A stretch of 58,752 bases of DNA from Gemmatimonadota bacterium. Its GTDB lineage: Bacteria; Gemmatimonadota; Gemmatimonadetes; Gemmatimonadales; GWC2-71-9. The stretch spans positions 1 to 58,752 of the forward strand of contig QHUT01000059.1 of assembly GCA_003222055.1 (NCBI GenBank), given 5' to 3'. Both the position numbers and the translations under genes were made by a program. Every line of letters starts with the position of its first letter. The stretch's first letter is position 1. Below the pieces are notes generated by a model, which was given only the letters and a program-made list of their open reading frames with translations, was not told the origin of the DNA and did not search any database. Of this stretch, positions 28,368 to 32,154 are shown piece after piece.

Positions 28368-28667
28368 GTGGGCAAGCGGGTGCTCCTGGTCACGGCGGAC
28401 CTCCTGTTCCGGTCGAAGCTCGCCGCAGTGGTTGCGGCGGCGGGCGGCGAGGTGACGCGCGACGAAGCGACGTGCGATCTTGCCGTCCTCGAGCTCCCGG
28501 GACCTGCCGCCGACCGGGTCGGGGAGCTCGTGCGCCGCCGCGTCCCGGTGCTGGCCTTCGGCTCCCACGTGCGGCCGGAAGCGTTGCGCGCGGCGCGGGA
28601 GGCGGGCGCGACGGCGGTGCCCAATTCGCAAGTCGAGACCCGACTGAGGGAACTGCTGAACGGGTAG
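28368..28667 (+). CDS. small receiver-like protein of unknown function
   Basis: 99 aa from a GTG five bases after glyS. The alternating pattern (RVLLVTADLLFRSKLAAVVAAAGGEV ... CDLAVLELP ... VPVLAFGSHV ... AGATAVPNSQVETRLRELL) resembles a shortened CheY-like fold, but the phospho-acceptor Asp is not at the usual place, so it is probably not phosphorylated. Its TAG stop is part of palindrome B1. Confidence 0.7.
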   Translation: MGKRVLLVTADLLFRSKLAAVVAAAGGEVTRDEATCDLAVLELPGPAADRVGELVRRRVPVLAFGSHVRPEALRAAREAGATAVPNSQVETRLRELLNG

Positions 28668-28714: not shown

Positions 28715-29182
28715 TCACTTCGCCGCCACCTGCACCTCGATCTGCCGCGGCTTGGCCCTCTCCACCTTGGGCAGGGTCACGGTCAGGACGCCATTCTCGT
28801 AACTCGCCTTGATGGCATTGGCGTCCACGGTCGTGGGCAGCGTAAAGCTGCGCTCGAACGCCCCGTAGGTGCGCTCATACCGATGCACCCGATCGGTGCG
28901 CTCTGCGGCCAGCTGCTGCTTCGAGCCCTGAATGGTGAGGACGTTGTTCTCGACGGTCAGCTTCACGTCCTCGGGGCGCACACCGGGAATCTCCGCCATG
29001 ATGCGGATGGCGTTGTCTTCCTCGAAGATGTCCACCGGCGGCACCCAGGCCGTCGTCGCGCCGTCCGGCGACTGCCACTCAGCGCCGAGCAGGCCGTCGT
29101 TCAACAGCCGGCTGAGCCGGTTGCTCAGACCGACAAAGTCCGCCAGCGCCGGGTCTCTCGTGATGCGGGGAAGGGTCGACAT
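28715..29182 (-). CDS. Hsp20-family small heat shock protein
   Basis: 155 aa. The alpha-crystallin domain spans about residues 45-150 (VPPVDIFEEDNAIRIMAEIPGV; closing ASYENGVLTVTLPK with the AxxxnGvL motif) and ends in a short IxV-type tail (IEVQV). It holds unfolding proteins for refolding. AGGAGG at 29192-29197 precedes the ATG. No CIRCE element is seen upstream; a 10-base inverted repeat (29302-29345) lies in the shared divergent region. Confidence 0.95.
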   Translation of the reverse strand: MSTLPRITRDPALADFVGLSNRLSRLLNDGLLGAEWQSPDGATTAWVPPVDIFEEDNAIRIMAEIPGVRPEDVKLTVENNVLTIQGSKQQLAAERTDRVHRYERTYGAFERSFTLPTTVDANAIKASYENGVLTVTLPKVERAKPRQIEVQVAAK

Positions 29183-29380: not shown

Positions 29381-29659
29381 GTGACACACACGACCAGCGT
29401 CGCGTTGGCGCCGGCGGAAGTGCTCGAGCGAGCCAAGCGGTTCTTCGCCGAGCGGGTCCCGCATGCCGCCGCCTACGTAGAGAAGGAAGGACCCGAGTTC
29501 GCGGTGCTCCGGGGTCAGGGCGGGGAGGAACTCGTGATCCGGGCCTGGGCCGACGGGACGGGGAAGACGCGGGTGCGGGCGTCGACGCTGTTTTTCGATC
29601 AGGCGCTCGATCGGTTTTTGTCGACGCTCCCCCTGGAGAGCGGTGTGGAGGTCGCGTGA
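29381..29659 (+). CDS. small alpha/beta protein of unknown function
   Basis: 92 aa from GTG 29381, ten bases after a TATCTT box, so probably leaderless. I do not recognise the family. Helix (PAEVLERAKRFFAERV), then strands (FAVLRGQGGEELVIRAWADG, TRVRASTLFF) and a last helix (QALDRFLSTLP) suggest one compact domain. Its stop overlaps the next start (GTGA), so the two are probably translated together. Confidence 0.65.
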   Translation: MTHTTSVALAPAEVLERAKRFFAERVPHAAAYVEKEGPEFAVLRGQGGEELVIRAWADGTGKTRVRASTLFFDQALDRFLSTLPLESGVEVA

Positions 29660-29931
29660 GCACGGTTACCGAGCGCTTCGCCGTGCGCGTGATGGTCACG
29701 GACGTGTGGGATCAGGTGTTCCTGGCGGTCGAGCCCACGACCACGGTAGCGGAGCTCAAGCGCCAGGCGCTGGCCCAGGCCCTGAAACGGTCGAATCTCC
29801 AGCTCGATGACTACATCGTGAAGTTCCGCGGCGCGCCGGTATTGGACGAAGCCGTCACGCTCGCGGCCCTCGGTGCCGTCGCCAACGCGCCGTTCATCGT
29901 CTTGCCCGCGCGTCGTCAGCCGGTGCACTGA
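29656..29931 (+). CDS. ubiquitin-like beta-grasp small protein
   Basis: 91 aa, GTG start. The order matches ubiquitin closely: strand hairpin (FAVRVMVTDVWDQVFLAVEP), a helix after TTTVAELKRQAL, strand YIVKFRGAPVLDE, then VTLAALGAVANAPFIVLPA in the place of ubiquitin's TLxDYxIxxESTLHLVL. There is no C-terminal di-Gly (it ends ARRQPVH), so conjugation is not implied. This is pattern recognition, not a profile hit. It is coupled to the gene before and followed two bases later by a membrane protein. Confidence 0.7.
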   Translation: MSTVTERFAVRVMVTDVWDQVFLAVEPTTTVAELKRQALAQALKRSNLQLDDYIVKFRGAPVLDEAVTLAALGAVANAPFIVLPARRQPVH

Positions 29932-30212: not shown

Positions 30213-31124
30213 ATGGGCACGCCGCCCGTTCCGGTCGTTCATCACCCCGCCTGCCGCTTGCACGATCCCGGCGCCGGTCACCCCGAGCGCCCCGAGCGGA
30301 TCGATGCCGTGCTCGGCGCGCTGCGCACACCGGACCTGGCCGGGCAGGTGGCGTGGCACGAGGCGCGGCCGGCGACCCGGGAGCAGCTGGAGCGAGTGCA
30401 CCCGGCGCAGTACCTGAACGGGCTGGAGCAGGTGGCGCACGCGGGCGGTGGCGCGCTCGATGCGGACACGGTGCTGAGCCGGGCCAGCTGGGAGGCGGCC
30501 CTCGCGGCGGCGGGAGTGGCGAGCGGCGCCGTCGAGTGCGGGCTCGCCTCGGGACGGGCCTTCGGCGCGACGCGGCCGCCCGGTCACCATGCGCTGGCCG
30601 CCCGCGCGATGGGCTTCTGCCTGATCAACAACGTGGTCGTGGCCGCGCGCCAGGGGCAGCAGCTGGGCGCGGCGCGCGTGCTGATCGTCGATTGGGACGT
30701 GCACCACGGCAACGGCACCCAGGCGCTGGTCGAGCGCGACCCCACGATCCGGTACGTGTCCATGCACCAGTACCCTTGGTATCCGGGAACGGGCGCCGAG
30801 GACGAGCGCGGCGTGGGAAACGTATTCAACGTGCCGCGCCCACCGGGCCTCGAGCGCCGGCGGTACGTGCAGGATCTGCTGGCGGCGGTGGACGCGGCGC
30901 GCGCCGGCTGGCGGCCCGACCTGCTGCTCGTCTCGGCTGGGTTCGACTCCCTCGCGGGCGACCCGCTGGGCGGGTTTACGCTGGAGCCCGACGACATCGC
31001 GACCTGGACGCGCGCGTTGCGTGAGCGGGTGGCACCGTCGCCCGTCGTGGGCCTGCTCGAGGGCGGCTACCGGCTCGATCTGCTCGCGGCGGGCGTGCGC
31101 GCGCATGTGCGGGCGCTGGCGTAA
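30213..31124 (+). CDS. HDAC/AcuC-family deacylase
   Basis: 303 aa, arginase-deacetylase fold. Zinc and active-site residues are in place: HPERPERI, RPPGHHA (His pair), DWDVHHGNGT (Asp and His ligands), SAGFDSLAGDPLGG (Asp ligand) and LEGGY (transition-state Tyr). Bacterial members deacetylate acetyl-CoA synthetase, polyamines or other small amides. An arginine decarboxylase lies 5 kb downstream, so acetylpolyamine deacetylase is one option; the sequence does not decide. Confidence 0.9.
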   Translation: MGTPPVPVVHHPACRLHDPGAGHPERPERIDAVLGALRTPDLAGQVAWHEARPATREQLERVHPAQYLNGLEQVAHAGGGALDADTVLSRASWEAALAAAGVASGAVECGLASGRAFGATRPPGHHALAARAMGFCLINNVVVAARQGQQLGAARVLIVDWDVHHGNGTQALVERDPTIRYVSMHQYPWYPGTGAEDERGVGNVFNVPRPPGLERRRYVQDLLAAVDAARAGWRPDLLLVSAGFDSLAGDPLGGFTLEPDDIATWTRALRERVAPSPVVGLLEGGYRLDLLAAGVRAHVRALA

Positions 31125-31134
31125 CGGGGGGTCG

Positions 31135-32154
31135 ATGCCGCTCACGCTCACCACGGAGGTCGTCTCGCTCGAGACCAAGCACCCGTTCGTGATCGCGCGG
31201 GGCGGGAACGACGACACCCGAGTGGTGTGGGTGCGGCTCACGGATGCGGACGGGGTGGAAGGGTGGGGTGAAGCCGATCCGTCGCGCTACTACGGCGAGA
31301 CGGCGGACACCGTGTTGACGGTACTGAAACGGCTGGCGCCGCATCTGCCCCGGGACCCGTTCGATCTGGAGGCGGCGGAGGCGCGGTTCGCCCAGGCGGT
31401 GCCGAAGAACGGAGCGGCGCGGGCCGCCCTCTCGGCGGCCCTGCACGACCTGGTGGGCAAGCGGCTCGATCAGCCGGTCTGGCGGTTGTGGGGGCTCGAT
31501 CCCGCCCGCGCGCCCCGCTCCTCGTTCACGATCGGCCTCGACACCGCTGAAAAGATGCGTCAGAAGGTGGCCGAGGCGTCGCCCTATCCGATCCTCAAGA
31601 TCAAACTGGGCACGGAGCACGACGAGCAGATCCTGCGCACGGTCCGCGACGCCACCGACAAGCCGCTCCGGGTGGATGCGAACGCCGGGTGGACGCGGGA
31701 TCGTGCGCTCCAGATGCTGCCCGTCCTGAAAGAATACGGCGTGGAGTTCGTGGAGCAACCGCTTCCACCGGACGACCTCGAAGGGATCGCCGCCGTGCGG
31801 CGCCGGGGGATCCTGCCCGTCGTCGTGGACGAGAGCTGCATCGTGGCCGCGGACATTCCCCGGCTCGCGGGCGCCGTCGACGGGATCAACATCAAGCTCG
31901 CGAAGTGCGGCTCGCTGCGCGAAGCGCTGCGCATGATCGCGACGGCCCGGGCGCACGGCATGCTGGTGATGGTGGGCTGTATGATCGAATCGTCGCTCGG
32001 GATCACGGCGGCGGCCCACTTCACGCCGCTGGTGGACGCGGCCGACCTGGACGGCGCCGCGCTCACGGCGAACGATCCCTTCGTCGGCGCCACGATCGAC
32101 GGCGGGCAGATCCGACTTCCCACAGGGCCGGGGCTGGGTGTCAGCAGACGATAA
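31135..32154 (+). CDS. dipeptide epimerase, enolase superfamily
   Basis: 339 aa from the ATG at 31135. The catalytic Lys pair is visible (LKIKLG near residue 160 and NIKLAKCG near 260), with metal ligands in VDANAGW, VEQPL and VDESC. These match the L-Ala-D/L-Glu epimerase group, which acts on murein peptides. That would fit the peptidoglycan-recycling genes 10 kb away. Substrate range in this group varies. Confidence 0.87.
   Translation: MPLTLTTEVVSLETKHPFVIARGGNDDTRVVWVRLTDADGVEGWGEADPSRYYGETADTVLTVLKRLAPHLPRDPFDLEAAEARFAQAVPKNGAARAALSAALHDLVGKRLDQPVWRLWGLDPARAPRSSFTIGLDTAEKMRQKVAEASPYPILKIKLGTEHDEQILRTVRDATDKPLRVDANAGWTRDRALQMLPVLKEYGVEFVEQPLPPDDLEGIAAVRRRGILPVVVDESCIVAADIPRLAGAVDGINIKLAKCGSLREALRMIATARAHGMLVMVGCMIESSLGITAAAHFTPLVDAADLDGAALTANDPFVGATIDGGQIRLPTGPGLGVSRR

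Follow-up and report, generated by a model that had tools for sequence, protein, structure and literature searches.

To our knowledge, stand-alone bacterial ubiquitin-like proteins that are not conjugated, such as YukD, TmoB and RnfH, are few and poorly understood. RatA (PasT) and RnfH (PasI) were once proposed to form a toxin-antitoxin pair, and in E. coli ratA-yfjF a small START/helix-grip-like gene overlaps a downstream ubiquitin-like gene. YukD/EsaB proteins (PF08817) are stand-alone beta-grasp proteins of 80-95 aa without a di-Gly. S. aureus RN6390 requires EsaB for type VII secretion (PMC5845737). Whether RatA is a toxin is now disputed, a wrongly annotated start codon having been given as the cause of its toxicity (PMC11988751).

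Here we describe one more protein of this kind, which occurs in most of an order of Gemmatimonadota, has an evident partner and carries a conserved free C-terminus. Gemmatimonadota is a widespread soil phylum, and a literature search found no paper on ubiquitin-like proteins in it. The protein and its partner provide a small, concrete system for studying the function of a ubiquitin fold that does not serve as a tag.

Gene organization and conservation

The window, the whole stretch of 58,752 nucleotides that was analysed, lies on contig C10 of a 3.69-Mb assembly of 173 contigs (genome G000). We designate the ubiquitin-like protein UBL and the 92-aa protein encoded upstream of it MP; labels f1, f2 and so on denote families, g1, g2 and so on genera, and the order of the window comprises f1-f3. 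The features of the locus are listed in Table 1. The start of UBL overlaps the stop of MP by 4 nt (GTGA). The two-helix membrane protein encoded next gave no Pfam match above cut-off.

Table 1. Coordinates of the UBL locus and its neighbours in the window.
Feature	Position	Strand	Remarks
99-aa protein after glyS	28368-28667	+	by eye like a degenerate receiver domain
HSP20 small heat-shock protein	28715-29182	-	E=2e-27; just upstream of MP
MP, 92 aa	29381-29659	+	beta-alpha-beta4-alpha domain; motifs RGQGGEE and FDQxxxRFxSTLP
UBL, beta-grasp, 91 aa	29656-29931	+	GTG start; basic C-terminal tail RRQPVH
Two-helix membrane protein, charged C-terminal segment	29934-30212	+	two hydropathy peaks; accessory
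HDAC-fold deacylase	30213-31124	+	PF00850, E=1e-75
Enolase-superfamily epimerase/racemase (MR_MLE)	31135-32154	+	syntenic neighbour

The frame of UBL is conserved in relatives: the protein was detected in 56 of 61 relatives, and among 298 genomes sampled from the phylum it was present in 182. Tallied by hand from the 298-genome listing, these comprise 157 of the 172 sampled genomes of the window's order and 25 genomes outside it, which belong to two further families of the same class. MP was detected in 203 of the 298 genomes, including 165 of the 172 from the order (same tally). All named relatives of the locus are metagenome-assembled genomes of the Gemmatimonadetes/Gemmatimonadales; other phyla were covered by a pattern scan alone, in which the best 80 loci were all from Gemmatimonadota. 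Compared with relatives, substitutions fall mostly at third codon positions in UBL and MP alike, with codon-position differences of 14/7/37 for UBL against L004. UBL is under purifying selection, and its conservation together with the codon-position pattern excludes a chance open reading frame.

Fold and sequence relationships of UBL

The structure of UBL was modelled by AlphaFold2 on a 90-row alignment (A3), yielding a pLDDT of 90 and a pTM of 0.78. Strands at residues 8-14, 19-25, 53-57 and 79-84 and a helix at 31-43 follow the order of ubiquitin, and a Foldseek search with the model returned 722 PDB matches at E≤1e-3, with ubiquitin, ISG15 and SUMO on top; the matches listed were all of these proteins or their relatives, the bacterial BilA (8tyx) included. 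The beta-grasp fold that the original prediction had read from the strand-helix-strand order is thus borne out by the model. Ubiquitin, ISG15, SUMO and BilA share the fold with UBL at TM-scores of 0.7-0.77 by query, but differ from it in that their Gly-Gly is replaced by Pro-Val in UBL and that UBL lacks an E1/E2/JAB cluster. Lys56, invariant in alignment A1, aligns to the position of ubiquitin Ile44, and the usual hydrophobic patch is therefore lost in UBL.

In sequence, UBL of the window matched no Pfam or NCBIfam model above cut-off. Among 90 UBL members searched against Pfam at E≤0.1, YukD was matched by 35, DUF2604 by 31 and ubiquitin by 16. The best E-value for YukD (PF08817) among these members was 2e-7, the window protein giving no match, and members inspected singly scored 16.6-23.3 bits against a cut-off of 27. 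For DUF2604 (PF10790) the 31 matches were weak and the window UBL was again without one, while L218 scored above the cut-off (27.4 bits against 25). Since the matches are weak or below cut-off, UBL constitutes a separate ubiquitin-like family that is faintly linked to YukD and DUF2604. Very low E-values to polyubiquitin were rejected as a sign of close kinship because they sum over repeats; single domains scored about 9 bits.

The last strand is followed by a short tail, RRxPVR, whose Pro-Val lies about at the position of the ubiquitin Gly-Gly. In 94 distinct sequences of the order type, Arg at -5 is invariant (94/94), Pro at -3 and Val at -2 are each kept in 86, and the last residue is Arg or Lys in 86. 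Most relatives end in RRxPVR and the window protein in RRQPVH. The tail was modelled as flexible (pLDDT about 55). A free C-terminus that is predicted to be flexible and yet is conserved suggests a docking peptide.

Pairing of UBL with MP

MP is encoded directly upstream of UBL on the same strand in all 80 named loci, and the same order occurs in f2, f3, f7 and f9, making five families with f1. The translational coupling proposed from the overlap in the window recurs in relatives, an NTGA overlap of 4 nt being kept in 75 of 80 f1 loci, 11 of 11 in f2 and 3 of 3 in f3; in f7 it is present in 5 of 18. The flanks of the pair vary. In f1 and f3 they consist of glyS, HDAC, epimerase and priA genes, and parts of f2 have a GAF-domain gene and a MoxR operon instead. 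The pair is flanked by a symporter gene in f7 and, in f9, by an SDR gene and one resembling an Xaa-Pro peptidase; apart from those tested against Pfam, these annotations were made by eye.

Genomes of f7 and f9 contain a second, lone copy of MP, and in a phylogenetic tree the copies adjoining UBL form one clade (support 100/99). Lone MP-type paralogues without a UBL neighbour (L184-L201), found in f6, f7 and f9, branch apart from the UBL-linked copies. MP without UBL also occurs in f6 and f4/f5, and in genus g41 MP was present in 8 of 8 genomes and no UBL was found. Conversely, G031 contains UBL and no MP was detected in it. Therefore, the two proteins are not strictly interdependent: the view of MP as the fixed partner of UBL stands insofar as the pairing is regular (80 of 80 loci, five families), but the dependence is not absolute. 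The loss of UBL in g41 represents a natural test of its dispensability. In both g41 loci that were read (L258 and L259), the HDAC gene directly follows MP, with UBL absent between them. We are highly confident of the fold of UBL and of its pairing with MP.

The AlphaFold2 model of MP (pLDDT 93, pTM 0.85) displays a beta-alpha-beta4-alpha topology. Its best fold matches in Foldseek are the KA1/FISL domains of the kinases CIPK, SOS2 and SAD (2zfd, 2ehb, 4yom), with TM-scores of 0.67-0.69 by query length and E-values of 3e-3 or worse, so that no PDB match was obtained at E≤1e-3; START-fold proteins are weaker matches. KA1/FISL domains have this topology in common with MP, but they form the tail of a kinase whereas MP stands alone, and the likeness comes with weak E-values and no sequence match. 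Sequence searches of MP against Pfam, NCBIfam and the PDB returned nothing significant, and none of 90 MP members matched a Pfam family, the polyketide-cyclase/START family included. Judged from the model, MP may be described as loosely KA1/START-like, a resemblance and not a membership.

Linkage of MP to a DbpA-domain protein

A wider profile of MP recovered MP homologues in f4 and f5 as well. A gene encoding a DbpA-domain protein (PF03880, E=9e-24, with a PF00270 DEAD-type core) is located about 35-300 bp downstream of MP on the same strand in G173 of f4 and in each of the 11 MP-containing genomes of f5. The distance is 1.7-1.8 kb in G064 (f4) and G084 (f6), and in f7 and f9 the gene lies 1-4 kb downstream of MP, with UBL between. 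In the window's order the DbpA-domain gene is present and not near MP (in G000 it is on contig C17). On the simplest reading, MP has long accompanied the DbpA-domain protein, and UBL joined MP.

We aligned 15 copies of the DbpA-domain protein from seven families. None of them contains the DEAD motif, all 15 contain the DbpA motif, and several are missing the Walker lysine. By its motifs, the DEAD-less protein likely lacks helicase activity and has a conserved domain for RNA binding. The domain of E. coli DbpA recognises hairpin 92 of 23S rRNA. The aligned copies were from f1, f2, f4, f5, f6, f7 and f9 (L262, L263, L265-L268, L270, L271, L274-L276, L225, L226, L229 and L231).

A putative role in RNA or ribosome metabolism

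Our preferred explanation, to which we assign a probability of roughly 0.4, is that UBL is a non-conjugating adaptor that is co-translated with MP and works in an RNA- or ribosome-associated complex. UBL and MP would form a co-translated two-protein module of Gemmatimonadota in which UBL probably binds MP, probably through the flexible RRxPVR tail and a conserved face, and would act as a protein-protein adaptor instead of a modifier. Together with the DbpA-domain protein, this module may take part in the metabolism of RNA or of the large ribosomal subunit, and the MP-UBL pair looks like a core helper of such work. The linkage of MP to the DEAD-less DbpA-domain protein suggests a role in RNA or ribosome metabolism, which is open to direct testing. 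Against this explanation stand the distance of the DbpA-domain gene from MP in the window's order, the occurrence of MP and of UBL without each other, and the weakness of the fold matches of MP. A more specific form of this explanation, in which UBL without the di-Gly tail and the KA1/START-like MP are a phylum-specific module that, together with the inactive-helicase DbpA-domain protein, has a core part in assembling or regulating the large ribosomal subunit, appears rather doubtful.

Membrane protein and deacylase neighbours

A two-helix membrane protein and an HDAC-fold deacylase had been predicted after UBL. Both are present here, as indicated by hydropathy peaks and by PF00850, but neither is universal and they fall outside the core. 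The two-helix membrane protein is encoded next in 50 of the 80 loci, is limited to part of f1, and is absent at the pair in f2, f7 and f9. The HDAC gene is found downstream in 77 of the 80 loci as well as in f3 and some f2; it does not adjoin the pair in several f2 genera, f7 and f9. Both genes are thus local neighbours that vary with the lineage.

These neighbours bear on two further explanations. The pair might operate in signalling at the membrane, where a KA1-like MP would bind acidic lipids or a kinase or sensor, and UBL and the two-helix protein would recruit it to the membrane. The fold matches of MP to KA1/FISL-type domains (TM-score up to 0.69), the frequency of the two-helix protein in the 80 loci and a GAF-domain protein preceding MP in part of f2 are consistent with such a role. 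However, the E-values of the fold matches are poor, the GAF neighbour occurs in part of f2 only and the two-helix protein is missing from three of the families that have the pair, and we consider signalling at the membrane unlikely.

Alternatively, the pair may regulate the downstream HDAC-fold enzyme, and through it the deacetylation of proteins or polyamines. This agrees with the high frequency of the HDAC gene after the pair in f1, with its presence in f3 and some f2, and with g41, where it directly follows MP without UBL. However, the whole block from glyS to priA is syntenic in f1, and HDAC adjacency there therefore weighs little; moreover, the gene lies away from the pair in several f2 genera, f7 and f9. 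A function as an accessory of the deacylase is accordingly quite improbable.

Unlikely conjugation by housekeeping enzymes

The absence of an E1, E2 or JAB gene beside UBL had been part of the original prediction, and none was found within the window. UBL could nevertheless be a conjugated modifier or a sulfur carrier, like ubiquitin, MoaD or CysO, if it were activated by a housekeeping E1: genes for E1 (ThiF) and JAB were present in 9 of 9 genomes tested. In addition, UBL of f7 and f9 (L171-L183) has a conserved C-terminal peptide without RRxPVR whose last residue is Gly in 13 of 13 sequences, and f7 has an E1 gene at a distance of about 6 kb from UBL. In G181 (f9), however, the E1 gene is 1.5 Mb away, and no E2 was seen adjoining UBL. 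The missing di-Gly, also noted beforehand, extends to the 94 order-type sequences, where the tail is without Gly; RRxPVR in its place argues against conjugation.

The single E1 found in G000 points in the same direction. Its gene and that of JAB are on contig C11, apart from UBL on C10, and the E1 is a MoaD-like/ThiF/rhodanese fusion whose MoaD-like domain ends in GG. Its gene sits in an operon with rhodanese, CysM and JAB genes. As this E1 brings its own GG-ending domain, UBL is not its obvious substrate, and activation of UBL by the housekeeping E1/JAB is unlikely. On balance, a conjugated or sulfur-carrying UBL seems very improbable. Within C11:11800-17000 (L256), the genes for rhodanese, a CysM-like protein, JAB and the MoaD-like/ThiF/rhodanese fusion constitute one operon, which is a sulfur-carrier system of the CysO/Mec type in which carrier and E1 are fused.

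Comparison with RatA-RnfH and YukD/EsaB

The E. coli ratA-yfjF arrangement matches the gene architecture of MP and UBL, and RatA/RnfH shares with the pair a possible ribosome connection. Together with the weak START-fold matches of MP, this would fit a toxin-antitoxin-like pair resembling RatA (PasT)/RnfH (PasI). However, the two systems have no detectable sequence relation, and MP is only about 90 aa. None of the 90 UBL members matched the Ub-RnfH Pfam family, and hhalign gave a probability of 0.1% both for UBL with RnfH and for MP with RatA, in each case against a single-sequence template and thus with low sensitivity. Homology to RatA-RnfH was rejected on these comparisons, none being detected at that sensitivity. 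The module is also widely kept across the order, a plasmid search returned no match for UBL and no convincing one for MP, and MP persists without UBL in g41. Furthermore, RatA toxicity itself has been ascribed to the start-codon error (PMC11988751). A toxin-antitoxin function is hence highly improbable.

UBL as a YukD/EsaB-type part of a type VII secretion system, as the weak YukD profile matches of 35 of the 90 members could suggest, can practically be dismissed, since a search of nine genomes from four families yielded no WXG100 protein (Bacillus subtilis control positive) and none of the singly inspected members reached the cut-off for YukD. The original prediction of a non-conjugating adaptor like YukD/EsaB thus survives as to the adaptor, which is the best reading, and a YukD/EsaB role in secretion finds no support. 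UBL differs from YukD/EsaB in having the partner MP, a conserved basic C-terminal tail and no type VII substrates in the genomes, and the YukD comparison holds for the fold and the lack of conjugation only.

Further genes at the locus

The MR_MLE epimerase/racemase is probably outside the module. The 99-aa protein after glyS, without a Pfam match, was found in 30 of the 80 related loci. The HSP20 gene, opposite in strand to MP, was seen in 20 of them.
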